Assembly (NCBI GenBank): GCA_029959905.1
Contig: JASCNZ010000002.1
Coordinates: forward strand, 1-64,000
Source: Microbacteriaceae bacterium PS02344
GTDB lineage: Bacteria; Actinomycetota; Actinomycetes; Actinomycetales; Microbacteriaceae
Length of the DNA: 64,000 bases
Direction: 5' to 3'
The translations under genes were made by a program, and so were the position numbers. Below are positions 11,748 to 20,266 of this stretch, one piece after another; within the stretch, counting starts at the first letter, position 1; the number at the start of each line of letters is the position of its first letter. The notes under the pieces are model-generated. The model was not told the origin of the DNA, ran no database searches, and saw only the letters and a list, made by a program, of their open reading frames with translations.

Positions 11748-13058
11748 TCAGCGGCGTCCCATGCCCCGGTAGGTCCACCCCGCTGCGCGCCATGCCGCCG
11801 CGTCGAGGCAGTTGCGTCCGTCGATGACGACGCGCTGACGGACGAGGGACCCCGCATGCGCGGGCGTCAGGTCGCGTCGGTACTCGTCCCACTCGGTCAC
11901 CACGACCACGGCATCGGCGTCGCGGAGGGCGTCGTCCGTCGCCCGCGCGTAGGCGAGCTGCGGATGAGCGGCCTCGGCGTTGTCGATCGCGGCGGGATCG
12001 GCGACCACGACATCGGCGCCCAGACCGCGCAGGCGTACCGCGACGTCGAGAGCGGGGGAGTCGCGGATGTCGTCGCTGAACGGCTTGAAGGCGGCGCCGA
12101 GAACGGCGACCCGTCGGCCGAAGACGCGGCCCCCGAGCGCGTCGATCACGAGCTGCACCGCACGGTCGCGTCGACGCAGGTTGATGGCGTCCACCTCGCG
12201 GAGGAATCCGACGGACTCCCCGCGCCCGAGGGCTTCCGCGCGCGCGGCGAAGGCGCGGATGTCCTTCGGCAGGCATCCGCCTCCGAATCCGATGCCCGAA
12301 CCGAGGTAGCGGTGACCGATGCGGCCGTCGTGCCCGAGCGCCTCGGCCAGCAGGGTCACGTCGGCTCCCGCCGCGTCAGCGATCTCGGCCATCGCGTTGA
12401 TGAAGGAGATCTTCGTCGCCAGGAACGCATTGGCGGCGCCCTTCACGAGCTCCGCCGTCGCGAGGTCGGTCACCAGGAACGGCGTATCGGTCTCGGCTGC
12501 GGTCCGATACGCGGACCGCAGCATTCCGGCGGCCCGCAGCCCGGCATCGCCGTCTGGCACGCCCACGACGATGCGATCGGGGGTGAGAGTGTCGTGCACG
12601 GCCCAGCCCTCGCGCAGGAACTCCGGGTTCCAGACGAGGGTCGCTCCGGCGGAGGCGATGCGGTCGGCGATCTCCTCGGCCGTACCGACCGGGACGGTCG
12701 ACTTCCCGGCGACCACGTCGCCTTGGCGCAGATGGGGGAGCAGCCCCTCGACGGCCGCCCACACGAATCGGAGATCGGCCGCGTCGCCGTCGGAGGATTG
12801 CGGCGTGCCGACCGCCAGGAAATGGACCTCGGCGCCCACGGCATCCGCCATGTCCGTCGAGAACGAGAGTCGGCCGTCGGCGATGCCGCTGCGGAGCAGG
12901 TCATCGAGGCCCGGCTCGAAGAACGGTGCCTCGCCGCGCGACAGCCGCGCCACCTTCGACTCGTCGACGTCGATCCCGACGACCTCGTGCCCGATCGAAG
13001 CCATCGCGGCGGCGTGCACGGCACCGAGGTACCCGCATCCGATCACTGACATGCGCAT
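11748..13058 (-). CDS. ugd: UDP-glucose 6-dehydrogenase
   Basis: 436 aa. It oxidises UDP-glucose to UDP-glucuronate using two NAD+. The N-terminal Rossmann motif is IGCGYLG; the catalytic cysteine lies in GFGGGCLPKD (about residue 262), and KSTVPVGT and NPEFLREG are further family signatures. ATG at 13058 is preferred because GAGGTG lies 5 nt before it; the in-frame GTG at 13064 overlaps that site. It is convergent with the glycosyltransferase fusion, suggesting a small cell-surface glycan locus. Confidence 0.93.
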   Translation of the reverse strand: MRMSVIGCGYLGAVHAAAMASIGHEVVGIDVDESKVARLSRGEAPFFEPGLDDLLRSGIADGRLSFSTDMADAVGAEVHFLAVGTPQSSDGDAADLRFVWAAVEGLLPHLRQGDVVAGKSTVPVGTAEEIADRIASAGATLVWNPEFLREGWAVHDTLTPDRIVVGVPDGDAGLRAAGMLRSAYRTAAETDTPFLVTDLATAELVKGAANAFLATKISFINAMAEIADAAGADVTLLAEALGHDGRIGHRYLGSGIGFGGGCLPKDIRAFAARAEALGRGESVGFLREVDAINLRRRDRAVQLVIDALGGRVFGRRVAVLGAAFKPFSDDIRDSPALDVAVRLRGLGADVVVADPAAIDNAEAAHPQLAYARATDDALRDADAVVVVTEWDEYRRDLTPAHAGSLVRQRVVIDGRNCLDAAAWRAAGWTYRGMGRR

Positions 13059-13155
13059 GGGCACACCTCAGCGGATGCACGGGCCGCCCAGGCATCCGGC
13101 GGATGAACGGCGGGTGTCCGCCGGCTGACGGTTCGATCCGACGACGATCTCCGAT

Positions 13156-13195
13156 GCGGATGCTCCGACGCATCCGCAGGCCGCGCTGGTAGAGT
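13156..13195 (+). promoter_or_regulatory. Hairpin and -10 upstream of pnp
   Basis: A perfect 8-bp hairpin, GCGGATGC-TCCGAC-GCATCCGC (13156-13177), precedes TAGAGT (13190-13195), a good -10. Transcription from here would give a leader of about 235 nt before pnp. Confidence 0.4.
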
Positions 13196-13239
13196 CGTGG
13201 GGGCTGTGCTCCGGCGCGGTCCACAACTTCATATCGACT

Positions 13240-13352
13240 CATGGAGCGATCGGCGGAGGAGCTGGTCCCCTGTGGTGGGTTCCTCGGCGTGGCATGTCGG
13301 GTGGCTTTCTACTGGTGGCCAGCGCAGGCGACATTCGCGAGAGTGCTCGCGC
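13240..13352 (+). ncRNA. Actino-pnp-like cis-regulatory leader RNA
   Basis: The 379-bp gap before pnp holds no gene; a conserved-looking structured leader fills it. GAGGA (about 13256) can pair with TCCTC (about 13281), and a perfect CGCGAG-AGTG-CTCGCG hairpin sits at 13336-13351. Position, host group and fold style fit the Actino-pnp RNA motif (Rfam RF01688), thought to regulate pnp. I could not score it against the model. Confidence 0.6.
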
Positions 13353-13437
13353 GCCCTTATCCTGCCGTTCCGCTCCTTCATGAACACGCTCGCGCGTCAC
13401 ACGGATTCGCGAGTCTAAACAAAGAAGGAGAGACCTC

Positions 13438-15714
13438 TTGGAAGGTCCTGAAATCACCGCCACCGAGGCCGTTCTCGACAACGGCCGCTTCGGCACCCGT
13501 ACCATCCGCTTCGAGACCGGCCGCCTCGCGCAGCAGGCTCAGGGCGCTGTCGCCGCCTACCTCGACGGCGAGACCATGCTCCTCTCGGCCACCAGCGCGG
13601 GCAAGCACCCGCGTGAGGGCTTCGACTTCTTCCCGCTGACGGTCGACGTCGAGGAGCGCTCGTACGCCGCGGGCAAGATCCCCGGCTCGTTCTTCCGTCG
13701 TGAGGGTCGCCCCTCCACCGAGGCCATCCTCGTCTGCCGTCTGATCGACCGCCCCCTGCGTCCGTCGTTCGTCGACGGTCTGCGCAACGAGGTCCAGATC
13801 GTCATCACCGTCCTCTCGATCGCTCCGGGCGAGTTCTACGACGCTCTGGCGATCAACGCCGCATCGGCGTCGACCCAGATCTCGGGCCTGCCCTTCTCTG
13901 GTCCGGTCGCGGGTGTGCGTCTCGCGTTCATCCCGGGTCACGGCGAGCACGCCGACCAGTGGGTCGCGTTCCCGACCGCCGAGCAGGTCTCGGAGGCCGT
14001 GTTCGACCTCATCGTCGCGGGCCGTGTGGTCACCAAGGCCGACGGCACCGAGGACGTCGCGATCATGATGGTCGAGGCCGAGGCGACCGAGGGCAGCTGG
14101 AACCTCATCAAGGCCGGCGCGACGAAGCCCGACGAGGCCGTCGTCGCCCAGGGTCTCGAGGCCGCGAAGCCCTTCATCGCGCAGCTGGTGAAGGCTCAGG
14201 CCGAGCTCGCCGCGACGTCGTCGAAGGAGCCGGGCGTGTACCCGGTCTTCCCGGCCTACAGCAGCGAGGTCTACGACTTCGTCGCCGGTCGCTCGTACGA
14301 CGAGCTGGTGAACGTCTACCAGATCGCCGACAAGCAGGAGCGTCAGAGCGCCGACGACGCCGTGAAGGATCGCGTCAAGGCCGACCTCATCGCCGCCGTC
14401 GAGGCGGGCGAGCTCCCCGCCGGCGCGCCGCTGGAGTTCGCCGCGGCCTACAAGTCCGTCACGAAGACGATCGTGCGCGGCCGCATCCTCACCGAGAGCG
14501 TCCGCATGGACGGCCGCGGTCTGGCCGACATCCGTCCGCTCGACGCCGAGGTGCAGGTCATCCCGCGCGTGCACGGTTCGGCCATCTTCCAGCGCGGTGA
14601 GACGCAGATCATGGGCGTCACCACGTTGAACATGCTCAAGATGGAGCAGCAGATCGACTCGCTGTCGCCCACGACGAGCAAGCGCTACATGCACCACTAC
14701 AACTTCCCGCCCTACTCGACCGGTGAGACCGGCCGCGTGGGTTCGCCGAAGCGTCGCGAGATCGGGCACGGCTTCCTGGCCGAGCGCGCCCTCGTCCCGG
14801 TGCTGCCCAGCCGCGAGGAGTTCCCCTACGCGATCCGCCAGGTCTCCGAGGCGCTGAGCTCGAACGGCTCGACGTCGATGGGCTCGGTCTGCGCATCGAC
14901 CCTGTCGCTGCTGAACGCGGGCGTGCCGCTGCGCGCTCCGGTCGCCGGTATCGCCATGGGCCTCGTCTCGGACGAGGTCGACGGTGAGACGCGCTACGCC
15001 GCGCTGACCGACATCCTCGGCGCCGAGGACGCTCTCGGCGACATGGACTTCAAGGTCGCCGGTACCAGCGAGTTCGTCACGGCGATCCAGCTCGACACGA
15101 AGCTCGACGGCATCCCGTCGTCGGTCCTCGCGGGCGCGCTGACCCAGGCGCGCGACGCCCGTCTGACGATCCTCAACGTGCTGAACGCGGCGATCGACGC
15201 TCCCGACGAGATGGCGCCCACCGCGCCGCGTGTCATCAGCGTGCAGATCCCCGTCGACAAGATCGGCGAGCTGATCGGCCCGAAGGGCAAGACGATCAAC
15301 GCGATCCAGGACGAGACCGGCGCGCAGATCTCCATCGAGGAGGACGGCACCGTCTACATCGGCGCGACCGACGGCCCGTCGGCCGAGGCCGCCCGTGCCC
15401 AGGTCAACGCGATCGCCAACCCGACCAACCCCGAGGTCGGCGAGCAGTTCCTCGGAACCGTCGTGAAGATCGCCACCTTCGGCGCCTTCATCTCGCTGCT
15501 CCCGGGCAAGGACGGCCTGCTGCACGTCACCGAGGTGCGCAAGCTCGCCGGTGGCAAGCGTGTCGAGAACGTCGAGGACGTGCTGTCGGTCGGTCAGAAG
15601 ATCCTCGTGAAGATCACGAAGATCGATGACCGCGGCAAGCTCTCGCTCGAGCCCGTCATCGACGAGGCGCCCGCCGCCGACGCTCCGGCGTCCGAGGAGG
15701 CCGCTGCCGAGTAA
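13438..15714 (+). CDS. pnp: Polyribonucleotide nucleotidyltransferase (PNPase)
   Basis: 758 aa, full length. Order: first RNase PH domain (about 10-150), helical linker, second RNase PH domain (about 340-560) with [17 protein letters not shown] and [21 protein letters not shown] domain (about 595-655, [13 protein letters not shown]) and S1 domain (about 665-740, [24 protein letters not shown]). It degrades RNA 3' to 5' with phosphate. The start is TTG with AAGGAG about 10 nt upstream; no in-frame ATG fits. The usual neighbour rpsO is not in the window. A strong terminator follows. Confidence 0.97.
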
Positions 15715-15727
15715 TCCGCTCCGCTGT

Positions 15728-15770
15728 CGAGAGCCCGGTGCCGCCCGCGAGGGGTGGCATCGGGCTCTCG
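15728..15770 (+). terminator. pnp terminator
   Basis: CGAGAGCCCG pairs with CGGGCTCTCG, and the stem continues through GTGCC/GGCAT with G-U pairs; the loop is at about 15746-15752. It is GC-rich and lacks a T-run, as is common in such genomes. Confidence 0.65.
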
Positions 15771-15780
15771 TGCGTGGCGT

Positions 15781-15826
15781 GACCAAACCGTTATAGGAAG
15801 TTCTTCCGCTGTTCCGTGGTTTGGTC
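15781..15826. repeat. Nested inverted repeats upstream of the AKR-like gene
   Basis: Outer arms GACCAAACC (15781-15789) and GGTTTGGTC (15818-15826) are perfect complements 28 bp apart. Inside lies a second palindrome, GGAAG-TT-CTTCC (15796-15807). The block begins right after the pnp terminator and about 100 bp before the next gene. It could be an operator pair or an RNA fold. Confidence 0.6.
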
Positions 15827-15928
15827 GGCCCGCTCCCCGTCTTCGCCTACTCTCGAAGTACGCACCGGGGGGTGCTGAGGTGCAGGTACGCCGGGTCGGA
15901 ACACGCCGATCGACGTGGGGGTGAGGAT

Positions 15929-16957
15929 ATGCGGTTGTTCAGTACAGGTGCGACAGCGCCGGACGAACGCGCGCCGCAGACCGAGTCCTCCCACCCGTCC
16001 GCTCCCATCCCGATCGTCGGACCGGGGGTCGGTGAGGCCGTGCGGGTCGACCTGGGCGAGACCGGTCTGAAGATCTTCCCGCTGTTCGTCGGTGCGGCGG
16101 AGTTCGGCTGGAACGTCGATCTCGAGACGAGCCACGGCATCCTCGATCGCTACGTCGATTTCGGTGGCAACGCCGTGCACACGGCCGACGGCTTCTCGGG
16201 CGGTCGCAGCGAGCACATCATCGGTCAGTGGCTGCGGTCCCGCGGGGTGCGTGACGACGTCGTCCTCGCAGCGCGCATCGGAGCGCATGCCGACAACCCC
16301 GGTCTCGGCTCGGTGAACCTCGTGCGAGCCGTCGAGGGGTCGCTCTCACGTCTCGGGGTCGAGCGCCTCGACGTGCTGTACCTCGACGCCACGCTCGACG
16401 CCACCACGAACCTCGAAGACACCCTCGCCACGGTCGAATGGCTCGTCGAGGCGGGGAAGATCCGTGCCGTCGGCGCGTACGGGTTCTCGGCGGAGCGACT
16501 GGTCGAGGCGCGGATCCTCGCTTCGGCGGGGTACCCCAGGATCGAGATCGCCGACGCTCCGTACAACCTGCTCCGCCGCGAGGCCCTCGAAGGCGACTTC
16601 CGACTGGTCGCCACGGCGCAGAGCCTCGCCGTGACGCCGTCCCACGCGCTCGAGCACGGCTTCCTCTCGGGGCGCCATCGGTCGAAGGCGGTCGCGTCTC
16701 GCGGGGTTCGCGGCGAGCAGCTGCGGGGCAGCATGAACCGCCGCGGCACCAAGGTGCTGCGCGCGCTCGACGAGGTGGCCGCCGAGCTGAGCGTTCCCGT
16801 CGCGGCCGTCTCGATCGCCTGGCTGCTCGCTCAGCGCACGATCGCGGCGCCCATCGTGAACGTGTTCTCGGCCGACCACGTCGACGAGCTCATCCAGGGG
16901 GCCGGGGTCGCGCTGACCCGGGCGCACGTCTCGGAGCTGTCGCGGGCGGCAGGCTAG
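15929..16957 (+). CDS. Aldo/keto reductase-like protein lacking the catalytic tetrad
   Basis: 342 aa from the ATG preceded by GGGGTGAGG. The fold is recognisably aldo/keto reductase: GGRSEHIIG, VEWLVEAGKIRAVGAYGFSAE and VSIAWLLAQRTIAAPIV align with family landmarks. However, the four catalytic positions all differ: D of the DTA motif is H84, Y is F89 (ADGF), K of the ATK motif is R116 (AARIG) and H of the IH motif is A154 (YLDA). The cofactor loop VGxS is NVFS. It is therefore probably a non-enzymatic or repurposed member. The first 35 residues are a polar, disordered-looking extension. Confidence 0.85.
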   Translation: MRLFSTGATAPDERAPQTESSHPSAPIPIVGPGVGEAVRVDLGETGLKIFPLFVGAAEFGWNVDLETSHGILDRYVDFGGNAVHTADGFSGGRSEHIIGQWLRSRGVRDDVVLAARIGAHADNPGLGSVNLVRAVEGSLSRLGVERLDVLYLDATLDATTNLEDTLATVEWLVEAGKIRAVGAYGFSAERLVEARILASAGYPRIEIADAPYNLLRREALEGDFRLVATAQSLAVTPSHALEHGFLSGRHRSKAVASRGVRGEQLRGSMNRRGTKVLRALDEVAAELSVPVAAVSIAWLLAQRTIAAPIVNVFSADHVDELIQGAGVALTRAHVSELSRAAG

Positions 16958-17039
16958 GCGAGGCTCCCCGCTCTCGTCACAGGTGTGACATAGGGTGGAG
17001 GAAAGTCCGGCAGACGCTGGCAGCGAAGCGAGCGGGGTT

Positions 17040-17642
17040 GTGACGCACTACATCTATCTGGTTCGACACGGTGAGCATCAGGATGCGGAGCATGGTCTCA
17101 CCGACGGTCCTCTGTCGCCGAGGGGTCAGCGGCAGGCCGAGCTGATCGCCGACCGCCTCGGTGGGCTGCCCCTCGATGCTGTGTGGCATTCGCCGCTCCT
17201 GCGTGCAGCCGAGACGGCGCGCGCCATCGCGGCCCGGTTGCCATCCGTCGACCCCAAGCCGACTCCGCTGCTCTTCGACTGCGTCCCCACCGGGATGACC
17301 GAGGAGACGCCCGCGGTGTTCGAGCCGTTCTTCGGCTCGGTGACCGACGCCGAGGTCGAGGCGGGCGGAGCCCAGATGTCCGACGCCGTCAACGAGTTCC
17401 TCGTGCGCAAGACCGGCGAGGTGCACGAGGTGCTCATCACCCACAACTTCGTGATCTCCTGGTTCGTGCGCGAGGTGCTGGGTGCACCGGAATGGCGCTG
17501 GATGACACTCAACCAGGCGCATTGCGCGCTGACCGTCATCGCGCAGAAGCAGGGCCGCCCGTGGACGCTGCTCACGCACAACGACACCGGCCATCTCCCC
17601 GTCGAGCTGCGTACGGGAATGCCCGACCCCATTCCGGTCTGA
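17040..17642 (+). CDS. Histidine phosphatase family protein
   Basis: 200 aa. The phosphohistidine motif is R9-H10-G11 in YLVRHGE, and the second catalytic histidine is in the LITHNF segment. LSPRGQRQAELIADRL is also typical of the phosphoglycerate-mutase-like superfamily. It is likely a cytoplasmic phosphomonoesterase of unknown substrate. The GTG at 17040 puts the motif at the usual distance from the N-terminus; a GTG at 16995 would add 15 residues and has no better ribosome site. Confidence 0.85.
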   Translation: MTHYIYLVRHGEHQDAEHGLTDGPLSPRGQRQAELIADRLGGLPLDAVWHSPLLRAAETARAIAARLPSVDPKPTPLLFDCVPTGMTEETPAVFEPFFGSVTDAEVEAGGAQMSDAVNEFLVRKTGEVHEVLITHNFVISWFVREVLGAPEWRWMTLNQAHCALTVIAQKQGRPWTLLTHNDTGHLPVELRTGMPDPIPV

Positions 17643-17701
17643 TCGAGCCCTCCTCTCCGACGCACCCGCGTGCCCCGGGGCCGGCGAATGGTCTCGCTCC
17701 C

Positions 17702-17707
17702 TAGACT
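17702..17707 (+). promoter_or_regulatory. -10 element of dapB, leaderless type
   Basis: TAGACT, 6 nt before the dapB ATG at 17714. Confidence 0.55.
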
Positions 17708-17713
17708 GGGAGC

Positions 17714-18454
17714 ATGACCACGCAGGTTGCACTCGTCGGCGGCACGGGCCGGCTCGGATCGATCATCCGTGCGGTGGTCGACGAGATGGACGGCTTCGAG
17801 GTCTTCCGGGTGCTCACCTCATCCAGCAGCCTGTCGGAGCTCGACGGTGCCGACTTGGTGATCGATGCCTCGACCCCGCAGGTGAGCATCGATGTCGTGC
17901 GTGCAGCGGTCGAACGCGGTATCAACGTGCTCGTCGCCACGTCTGGCTGGTCGGCCGAGCGCATCGCGCTCGTGCGTGCGCTCGTCGACGACGCCGAGAC
18001 GGGCGCCGTCTTCATCCCGAACTTCTCGCTGGGTTCCGTCCTCGGCTCCGCCCTGGCCGCCGCGGCCGCGCCGTTCTTCGGATCGGTCGAGATCGTCGAG
18101 GCTCATCGCGACACGAAGGTGGATTCGCCGAGCGGGACTGCGGTGCGCACCGCCGAGCTCATCGCCGCCGCGCGTTCCGAACAGGGTCCGGTGAGCGCGC
18201 CGCACGCCGATCAGCGCGCCCGCGGTCAGCAGGTCGGCAGCGTCCCCATCCACTCCCTCCGGCGCCCGGGCGTCGTCGCGAAGCAAGAGGTCGTCCTCTC
18301 GGGTCCCGGTGAGTCGCTGACCCTCACACACGACACCGTCGAACCCGCGCTCGCCTATGCTCCGGGCATCCGTCTCGCCGTGCCCTTCGCCCGAGATGCC
18401 CGGGGGATCGTGGTGGGCCTCGAGAACATGATCGACATCGGTCTCCGCTCATGA
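17714..18454 (+). CDS. dapB: 4-hydroxy-tetrahydrodipicolinate reductase
   Basis: 246 aa. It performs the NAD(P)H-dependent step after DapA in the diaminopimelate/lysine pathway. The nucleotide-binding GGTGRLG is residues 9-15. The active-site segment is EAHRDTKVDSPSGTA, giving H131 and K135 as the catalytic pair and PSGT at 139-142; the second histidine of the usual HH pair is arginine (R132). The stop overlaps the next gene by 4 nt. dapA and dapF lie elsewhere in the window. Confidence 0.95.
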   Translation: MTTQVALVGGTGRLGSIIRAVVDEMDGFEVFRVLTSSSSLSELDGADLVIDASTPQVSIDVVRAAVERGINVLVATSGWSAERIALVRALVDDAETGAVFIPNFSLGSVLGSALAAAAAPFFGSVEIVEAHRDTKVDSPSGTAVRTAELIAAARSEQGPVSAPHADQRARGQQVGSVPIHSLRRPGVVAKQEVVLSGPGESLTLTHDTVEPALAYAPGIRLAVPFARDARGIVVGLENMIDIGLRS

Positions 18455-18888
18455 CCTCGCGCATCGGCGTCGCCGTCATGGCGCTCTGTCTGCTGCTGTA
18501 CATCGTCGTGGTCGGCCAGCGCGCCGTGCTGATGCTGATGACGGGCCAGCCGATCGCGATCGCGATCGGAGTGGCCCTGATCGTCATGCCGCTGATCGGA
18601 GCGTGGGCGCTGATCCGCGAGATGCAGTTCGGATTCGCTGCGGATCGACTGGCCCGCACGCTCGAGTCCGAGGGGCGGATGCCCGAGCCCGAGACCCCGC
18701 TCACCCCGAGCGGTCGACTCGCTCGGGACGACGCCGGCCCGATGGTCGAGCGATATGCGGCGGAGGCGGCGCTGGCCCCGGACGACTGGCGTTCTCATTT
18801 CCGCCTCGGTGTCGTCCAGGACGCGGCCGGGCGCCGGAAGGACGCCCGCGCGAGCATCCGCGAGGCCATCCGCCGTTCCCGCGCCTAA
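18451..18888 (+). CDS. Small membrane protein with TPR-like tail
   Basis: 145 aa. Two hydrophobic helices (about 7-25 and 34-55) precede a cytoplasmic tail whose end (about residues 95-142: ERYAAEAALAPDDWRSHFRLGVVQDAAGRRKDA) looks like one and a half tetratricopeptide repeats. Its start overlaps the dapB stop (ATGA), so the two are co-translated. Function unknown; a scaffold or membrane tether is conceivable. Confidence 0.8.
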   Translation: MTSRIGVAVMALCLLLYIVVVGQRAVLMLMTGQPIAIAIGVALIVMPLIGAWALIREMQFGFAADRLARTLESEGRMPEPETPLTPSGRLARDDAGPMVERYAAEAALAPDDWRSHFRLGVVQDAAGRRKDARASIREAIRRSRA

Positions 18889-18896
18889 GGCCGCGA

Positions 18897-19322
18897 TCAG
18901 GCGAGCGTGGCCTCCAGGGTGATCTCGATCCCGGCGAGCGCCTGCGAGACCGGGCATCCGGTCTTCGCGTCGGCGGCGATCCGCTGGAAGTCCTCCGACG
19001 ACAGTCCCGGCACAACGGCGTTGACGTTCAGGTGACTGCCCGTGATCCCCGTCCCCGGCTTGAACGTGACGGATGCTCCGGCGTCGATGCGCTCCGGAGG
19101 GGTGCCGTTCTCGCTCAGCGCGTGGGCGAGGGCCATGCTGAAGCACGAGGCGTGGGCGGCGGCGATCAGCTCCTCGGGCGTCGTGGTGGTCTCGCTGCCC
19201 TCGCTCCGGGCCTTCCAGTCGATCGGGAAGGTGCCGAGCTTCGACGATGAGAACGCCACGGTCCCGCTCCCGTCGGCGAGGGTTCCGGTCCAGGTGGTGT
19301 TGGCTTCGCTGGTGACGGGCAT
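18897..19322 (-). CDS. OsmC/Ohr family peroxiredoxin
   Basis: 141 aa. The two redox cysteines are C60 (AAAHASCFSMAL) and C123 (KTGCPVSQAL), and R39 and E51 fit the conserved active-site Arg and Glu. The sequence is closer to OsmC-type (YhfA/OsmC, with the PEELIAAAHASCFSMAL signature) than to Ohr. It reduces organic hydroperoxides with thiol donors in the cytoplasm. GGAGGA lies 4 nt before the ATG, so this gene uses a Shine-Dalgarno unlike many neighbours. Confidence 0.92.
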   Translation of the reverse strand: MPVTSEANTTWTGTLADGSGTVAFSSSKLGTFPIDWKARSEGSETTTTPEELIAAAHASCFSMALAHALSENGTPPERIDAGASVTFKPGTGITGSHLNVNAVVPGLSSEDFQRIAADAKTGCPVSQALAGIEITLEATLA

Positions 19323-19443
19323 GATTCCTCCGGTTCTCGCGCCGCGCGGGTTCGCAGCGTCGCGTCGTGGTCAGCCTAGCGAGCGGGCCCGTCCCGCGGA
19401 ACGGGCCGTCGTGCGCGTCCGTCCGTCGACCGACCGAGGCGGG

Positions 19444-19449
19444 TATCCT
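19444..19449 (+). promoter_or_regulatory. -10 element of thyA, leaderless type
   Basis: TATCCT, 7 nt before the thyA ATG at 19457. Confidence 0.5.
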
Positions 19450-19456
19450 GGCAAGC

Positions 19457-20266
19457 ATGAGCGATGTCGTGCCGACGCCCTACGAAGACCTCCTCCGCGA
19501 CGTGCTCGAGAACGGCGCCCGCAAGTCCGATCGGACGGGCACGGGGACGACGAGCGTCTTCGGGCGCCAGATCCGTTTCGACCTGTCGCAGGGGTTCCCG
19601 CTGATCACGACGAAGCGCGTGCACTTCAAGTCGATCGCCTACGAGCTGCTGTGGTTCCTGCGCGGCGATTCGAACGTGCGCTGGCTCCAGGAGAATGGCG
19701 TGTCCATCTGGGATGAATGGGCGGATGACGCGGGCGAGCTCGGTCCGGTGTACGGCGTCCAGTGGCGTTCGTGGCCCACGCCGCAGGGCACGAGCATCGA
19801 TCAGCTCAGCGAGGTGATCGATCAGATCCGCCGCACGCCCGACTCGCGTCGACTCATCGTGTCGGCGTGGAACCCCGCCGACATCCCCGACATGGCCCTG
19901 GCGCCGTGTCATGCGCTCTTCCAGTTCTATGTGGCCGACGGGCGGCTCTCCTGCCAGCTGTATCAGCGCAGCGCCGACATGTTCCTCGGCGTGCCGTTCA
20001 ACATCGCCTCCTACGCGTTGCTGACCATGATGATCGCGCAGCAGGTCGGGCTCGAGCCCGGCGATTTCGTATGGACGGGCGGAGACACCCACATCTACGA
20101 CAACCACCGCGAGCAGGTCGCCGAGCAACTGACGAGGGCGCCCTTCCCGTACCCGACGCTCCGGTTCGCGCGGAAGCCCGAGTCGATCTTCGACTACCGC
20201 TACGAGGACTTCGTCGTCGACGACTACCAGCACCACGCGCCGATCCGAGCGGCGGTGGCGGTATGA
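19457..20266 (+). CDS. thyA: Thymidylate synthase
   Basis: 269 aa, standard length. It methylates dUMP to dTMP using methylene-tetrahydrofolate. The nucleophile is C151 in [12 protein letters not shown], with the folate/dUMP contacts [18 protein letters not shown] and DTHIYDNH also present. The stop overlaps the folA start (ATGA). Because the reaction yields dihydrofolate, co-expression with dihydrofolate reductase makes metabolic sense. Confidence 0.97.

Follow-up and report, generated by a model that had tools for sequence, protein, structure and literature searches.

Does a protein that keeps the fold of an aldo/keto reductase (AKR), and from which all four residues of the catalytic tetrad have gone, come from a decaying gene, from a reductase of an unusual kind or from a gene put to another use? 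The question is raised by a gene in the window, the whole stretch of 64,000 nucleotides of Microbacteriaceae bacterium PS02344 that was analysed here. The gene lies between neighbours which we take to be pnp on one side and a phosphoglycerate-mutase-like (PGM) and a dapB-like gene on the other (Table 1).

Table 1. Positions in the window of the AKR-fold gene, its neighbours, its upstream elements and the codons discussed in the text (n, distinct Microbacterium proteins; intact, orthologues with the D-Y-K-H tetrad).
Feature	Position	Strand	Basis or residues found
pnp (polynucleotide phosphorylase), upstream neighbour	13438..15714	+	synteny
Direct-repeat box GTGACCAAACCGTTAT, MtrA-like, 11-bp period	15779..15794	+	conserved upstream
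-10-like hexamer TACTCT, conserved	15848..15853	+	alignment of 81 upstream regions
Inverted repeat GCACC-GGGG-GGTGC, directly 3' of the -10-like hexamer	15862..15875	+	
AKR-fold protein with replaced tetrad, 342 aa	15929..16957	+	open frame, Pfam, alignments, AF2 model
Glu58 codon, new conserved pocket residue	16100..16102	+	E 129/133; intact rows V 55/76
His84 codon (Asp in AKRs)	16178..16180	+	n=133: H 128, Y 2, Q 2, N 1
Phe89 codon (catalytic Tyr in AKRs)	16193..16195	+	n=133: F 92, Y 33, D 3, five singletons including one gap
Arg116 codon (catalytic Lys in AKRs)	16274..16276	+	n=133: R 132, K 1
Asp153 codon (catalytic His in AKRs)	16385..16387	+	n=133: D 131, N 2
Asp209 codon (nicotinamide-contact Gln column)	16553..16555	+	n=133: D 129, E 4; intact Q 53/76
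Ser238-His239 codons	16640..16645	+	S 127/133, H 120/133; intact mostly Tyr/Arg, then Phe
His243 codon, newly conserved	16655..16657	+	H 128/133
Asn311 codon, former cofactor-phosphate loop	16859..16861	+	N 126/133; intact S 63, G 13, n=76
Phosphoglycerate-mutase-like (PGM) histidine phosphatase, downstream neighbour	17040..17642	+	synteny; start codon picked by eye
dapB-like gene, downstream neighbour	17714..18454	+	synteny

Fold and catalytic tetrad

The protein matches PF00248 (Pfam) over residues 52-338 (E 1.5e-40), and its top sequence match among solved AKRs is DepB (phmmer, E 1.7e-32). An AF2 model based on 49 sequences from the genus (pLDDT 79, pTM 0.78, with pLDDT below 50 at residues 1-32, 242-244 and 247-250) finds its best structural match in the AKR 7utf (Z 36.4, rmsd 1.8 over 287 residues, span 34-342), DepB (Z 35.3) and Kv-beta (Z 34.9) being among the others. 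Over residues 34-342 the fold is held in common with the AKR6-like reductases DepB (8hwn), 7utf and AKRtyl (8jwk). As judged from the Pfam match and the superposed model, the (beta/alpha)8 AKR fold is kept, which is what a sequence-only reading of the window had claimed from family landmarks along the chain.

Ten AKR matches were found in the genome, and this protein is the weakest of them (139.8 bits). Eight of the others have intact D, Y and K columns in the alignment, their His having been seen by eye, and the ninth (L006) holds all four tetrad residues, again by eye. In the window protein, the tetrad D-Y-K-H reads H84-F89-R116-D153, whether it is aligned to DepB by phmmer or placed in either of two MAFFT alignments. 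DepB has D, Y, K and H at these positions, whereas the window protein has all of them replaced and appears to have lost the contacts to the cofactor as well. The first three replacements, seen in all three alignments, are those that the sequence-only reading had named. The fourth had been placed at A154, one residue late: the column of the catalytic His, where LDVLYLDA is aligned with IDLLYFHD, holds D153. No intact D, Y, K or H was seen elsewhere in the chain in these alignments.

The residues were counted in 133 distinct proteins, obtained by pooling 159 Microbacterium loci, with the two split-frame genes and part of the 194 matches described below left out. Neither Asp84 nor His153 occurs in any of the 133, and Lys116 occurs in one, which rules out chance; residue 89 may be F, Y, D, W, L, H or S. 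Judging from these alignments, the Asp and the His of the tetrad have in effect exchanged places in the Microbacterium proteins, and such an exchange could preserve an Asp-His-Arg charge network with a new geometry.

Distribution, selection and origin

The genome scan, which favours near relatives, provided the best 80 of 106 relatives (L011-L090), and the titles of these loci name 78 Microbacterium, one Planococcus and one Actinomycetes bacterium. Matches to pnp and PGM flank the gene in 80/80 of them, and dapB follows as well in 76/80. When the genus was sampled evenly, 194 of 198 genomes gave a match to the gene (E 1e-60 or better), and four diverged members of the 194 (L216-L219) keep the replaced pattern beside pnp or PGM. 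In three of the four non-matching genomes the AKR-fold gene is absent and the PGM gene comes straight after pnp; the fourth is 72% complete, and a full pnp was not found in it. In two further genomes, G239 (L213) and G284 (L215), the gene is in two frames, split near residue 80, and the G239 assembly is 68% complete and has its PGM gene split too. Since three members of the genus do without the gene and it is broken between frames in two others, it is dispensable.

These absences and broken frames, one of the latter in the 68% complete assembly, are what could be cited for a decaying pseudogene. Selection on the gene was estimated by the Nei-Gojobori method from 38 non-overlapping orthologue pairs with a gene dS of 0.2-1.0, taking the nearest pairs first. 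The median dN/dS is 0.102 for the AKR-fold gene, against 0.104 for pnp, 0.067 for PGM and 0.081 for dapB (35 pairs). The substitutions are kept throughout the genus and the ratio is close to those of the neighbouring genes, which indicates that the gene is not decaying; in addition, residues are kept by means of synonymous codons. A decaying pseudogene is therefore ruled out by the dN/dS and the breadth of occurrence, and its probability is vanishingly small. The sequence-only reading had come to the same view from the open frame and the ordinary codon use, and the substitutions it had described in a single chain proved to be conserved across the genus (133 distinct proteins). As far as sequences can tell, what Microbacterium maintains is the absence of a catalytic motif, conserved under purifying selection, which is the mark of a pseudoenzyme. 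Like pseudoenzymes in general (reviewed in PMC10211241), the protein has lost its defining motif in a conserved manner while keeping the fold.

The origin of the replaced tetrad was traced in a quick IQ-TREE tree of 134 rows, with support of at least 95 on 50 of its 131 inner branches and 47 drawn open. All 32 Microbacterium rows fall into a single clade (SH-aLRT 99, stem 0.44) amid intact orthologues from other genera; D-Y-K-H was read in 87 of the 134 rows, and most of the orthologues from other genera are intact. Four of the latter, from other Microbacteriaceae (L094, L095, L102, L110; 46-49% identity), are closely flanked by pnp on the upstream side and PGM on the downstream side, with dapB also downstream, as in the window. 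Unlike the window gene, these four combine an intact D-Y-K-H tetrad with the lack of the upstream box described below. On the tree of the 32 Microbacterium rows, positions 84, 116 and 153 need 1, 0 and 1 changes, respectively, and position 89 needs 11, which indicates that three of the replacements were fixed early and that the position of the Tyr was left free. The motif HPSAPI near the N-terminus is common to the window protein and the intact L094 and L102. HPSAPIP as a novelty of Microbacterium is ruled out, as HPS(A/S/T)PI occurs in the intact L093, L094, L098 and L102.

Over all the rows of the tree, loss of the tetrad takes four changes by parsimony, or five if D-F-K-H is counted. The losses besides that of Microbacterium are a tandem S-Y-K-D clade (8 rows), V-H-R-E/Q together with D-A-K-D, and D-V-T-R. 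The S-Y-K-D proteins are paralogues from other Microbacteriaceae (L127, L138, L141, L142, L145, L156, L157 (second copies) and L180) that form a clade of their own, hold Arg in the 311 column in 8/8 and represent a candidate second line of pseudoenzymes. Descent of the Microbacterium protein from this paralogue is ruled out by the separate branch of the latter. V-H-R-E/Q, D-A-K-D and D-V-T-R are the tetrads of L114, L103, L116, L148 and L165, all from other genera; L114 and L116 adjoin pnp, L148 and L165 lie near PGM, and no neighbour was matched for L103 (D-A-K-D) in the stretch examined. Of the intact, the converted and the lost types together, most sit in gene copies near pnp or the PGM gene.

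Cofactor site, pocket and possible role

In AKRs, the columns of Ser184, Asn185 and Gln209 make the nicotinamide contacts, and the loop that contains position 311 binds the phosphate of the cofactor. In Microbacterium, S184 has been replaced mostly by F or Y, N/D185 by G and Q209 by D, the window protein showing Y184, G185, D209 and N311-V-F-S. The loop after P308 reads mostly N-A-F-A in the genus versus mostly S-A-S-R/S in the intact orthologues, so the changed cofactor loop of the sequence-only reading is borne out. By these columns, the contacts to NAD(P)H are lost in the Microbacterium protein.

This loss bears on whether the protein might still be an oxidoreductase of the AKR type, working with an unusual tetrad. 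The AKR fold and the overall barrel are retained, Tyr89 is kept in 33/133 proteins and Lys116 in one, so that residual chemistry is possible in those species, and in AKR1D1 an AKR is known whose tetrad differs at a single residue (His to Glu). Nevertheless, position 89 shows seven residue types in 133 proteins and 11 changes on 32 rows, and Ser184, Asn185, Gln209 and the phosphate loop have all been replaced, which makes continued redox chemistry very improbable.

The 32 Microbacterium rows (conservation of at least 84%) were compared with 76 orthologues chosen for D-Y-K-H (at least 75%), both thresholds being of our own choosing, and ten of the 342 columns are conserved in both sets with different residues. 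Three of the ten are tetrad columns, and columns 236, 239 and 311 are on or beside strand ends in the AF2 model. Strand ends are the active-site side of the AKR fold. In the same model H84, R116 and D153 are on strands 82-84, 112-117 and 147-153, and D209, S238 and N311 on strands 207-211, 234-238 and 309-311, in both cases mostly at the ends, while E58 is just past strand 53-55 and H243 falls in a poorly predicted loop. Across the 80 loci L011-L090, no residue change is found at E58, H84, R116, D153, D209, S238, H239, H243 or N311; at these pocket positions several synonymous codons are used and the residue stays the same. Position 239 is Q in 10/133 Microbacterium proteins. From the alignments and the model, a new and nearly invariant polar pocket appears to stand in place of the NAD(P)H contacts.

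According to these data, we propose, with a probability of roughly two in three, that an AKR active site was converted once to a new pocket and that AKR chemistry was lost with it. A pnp-linked AKR would have lost its redox chemistry in the ancestor of Microbacterium through the exchange D84H plus H153D and through K116R, after which the catalytic Tyr would have been free to drift. The nicotinamide and phosphate contacts would have gone, and the mouth of the barrel would have been rebuilt as a polar pocket, which has stayed almost unchanged from then on. The product would keep its AKR6-like (beta/alpha)8 fold and would no longer be an NAD(P)H-dependent reductase. The likeliest role for it, which we rate somewhat below an even chance, would be to bind a small ligand of polar or anionic character and to serve in this way as a sensor, a carrier or a partner of another protein.

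Two other roles have to be weighed. One shares the conversion with the reading just given, and its probability overlaps with that reading's, the difference being in the role alone: the pocket would be a new non-redox active site at the strand ends, acid-base or metal-assisted (hydrolysis, isomerisation), made of His84, Asp153, Arg116, Glu58, Asp209, His239 and His243. The new residues hardly vary and are capable of such chemistry, Asp and His have been swapped instead of vanishing, and H84, R116, D153, D209 and S238 sit on strands of the AF2 model, mostly as their last residues. A catalytic arrangement is, however, harder to reconcile with Q at position 239 in 10/133 proteins, with Y, Q or N at position 84 in five, and with the place of His243 in a poorly predicted stretch, and we regard it as unlikely.

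The other role is that of a scaffold or subunit acting through its surface, in which case the pocket residues would merely stabilise a barrel without cofactor. Kv-beta, one of the closest folds (Z 34.9), is a potassium-channel subunit with the AKR fold, although it keeps its tetrad and binds NADPH, whereas the tetrad and the cofactor site are both replaced in the window protein. Once the cofactor is gone, its charged cavity would have to be neutralised, which D153 together with R116 could do. Such a role fits poorly with the ten differently conserved columns, as three are those of the tetrad and three more are on or near strand ends, and the linked genes seen (pnp, PGM and dapB) are all common to the intact version. 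It too is unlikely.

The sequence-only reading had suggested that the protein may be a pseudo-enzyme that binds or regulates. This view is supported, the substitutions being conserved and the gene not decaying, with the amendment that the replacing residues are nearly fixed and new fixed polar residues have joined them, which leaves a new activity in the same pocket as open as a passive role. Some pseudoenzymes may have migrated catalytic residues (PMC10211241).

Upstream box and regulation

The aligned upstream regions share a box GTGAY-N6-GTTAY, the -10-like hexamer and a small inverted repeat. A looser form of the box, GTKAY-N6-GTKAY, is present in 77/82 Microbacterium rows (control pattern 0) and in 2/95 rows from other genera, tandem copies included (control 1), and the box was found in 110/133 distinct Microbacterium upstream regions (control pattern 0). 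The strict form is less regular in distant members of the genus (29/40) and in the outliers (3/10). In the three genomes without the AKR-fold gene the box is absent between pnp and PGM, which makes it unlikely to be a property of the PGM-dapB operon. As for the inverted repeat, a 5-pair stem within 28 nt of the -10-like hexamer occurs in 113/133 distinct Microbacterium upstream regions versus a mean of 23.8 after shuffling, with the compensated forms GCACC/GGTGC and GCGCC/GGCGC, and it could be an operator or a hairpin of the 5' leader. No sigma-70 consensus promoter or intrinsic terminator was found in 15650-17100, and no Rfam family reached its gathering threshold in 13000-19500.

The box resembles the sites of MtrA. 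On the other strand it reads ATAAC-N6-GTCAC, and its core and its 11-bp period fit the direct repeats of the MtrAB regulon of Corynebacterium glutamicum (PMC3353115). There, the MtrA sites are described as loosely conserved direct repeats, RTAACAAT-ttn-RTAACAAT, which the window box matches only in part, and they lie upstream of the -35 when MtrA activates (PMC3353115); the window box (15779-15794) precedes the presumed start by ~70 bp, the -10-like hexamer being at 15848-15853. The S. coelicolor sites are described as two imperfect direct repeats (PMC5650626), and in S. venezuelae only a 7-bp half-site is defined (PMC13189361). The genome encodes mtrA (NF040689, 384.1 bits, cut-off 300) and mtrB (NF040691, 614.2 bits, cut-off 450), with an lpqB-like gene adjoining them.

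In the whole genome, a tighter pattern of the box occurs at the window site only, and GTKACN6GTKAY occurs at 18 sites versus 2 for the reversed control. Nine ORFs near box sites of the genome were scanned against Pfam. Two of them, an M23 peptidase and an ABC ATPase with a CBS domain, fit an MtrA regulon, and seven do not obviously do so (Band 7, xylose-isomerase-like, ROK, PadR, DoxX, RsfS and a solute-binding protein). The targets of MtrA in C. glutamicum include putative cell-wall peptidases and osmolyte carriers (PMC3353115). The box before the M23 murein peptidase has the form GTGAC-N6-GTKAY and recurs in 28/30 loci from 29 genomes (control 0; L248:1501-1516, L261-L290), and it is possibly an MtrA-like regulon signal extending through the genus. 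For the M23 protein itself, NCBIfam returned no name at E 1e-20. The ABC ATPase with a CBS domain, beside the box site at L249:1501-1516, perhaps serves osmoprotectant uptake.

By the resemblance of the box, control of the AKR-fold gene by MtrA is close to an even chance. In the proposed history, the converted gene would also have gained this upstream box, and having gained it the gene may be expressed along with genes for the cell wall and for osmotic stress. Perhaps, then, the protein has an envelope- or osmosis-related role as a member of an MtrAB-like regulon. A more specific version, in which the Asp/His-swapped barrel forms with Glu58, Arg116, Asp209, His239 and His243 a non-redox site for envelope or osmotic homeostasis under MtrAB, is decidedly unlikely; if true, one orthologous gene would have switched enzyme class while keeping its synteny.

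Pseudoenzymes are well known (PMC10211241), and a case with the AKR fold appears to be new within the literature searched: the titles and abstract openings of open-licence papers yielded no AKR pseudoenzyme, and papers on Microbacterium and MtrA yielded nothing on this gene or its box. The label 'aldo/keto reductase' that the gene bears across Microbacterium is probably wrong as to function, and the gene is a new candidate for membership of an envelope-stress regulon. Because an intact type, a converted type and three further losses (by parsimony) are found in one family, an order of events can be tested directly in which the Asp/His swap and the Lys-to-Arg replacement were fixed, the Tyr was freed and the upstream box was gained.
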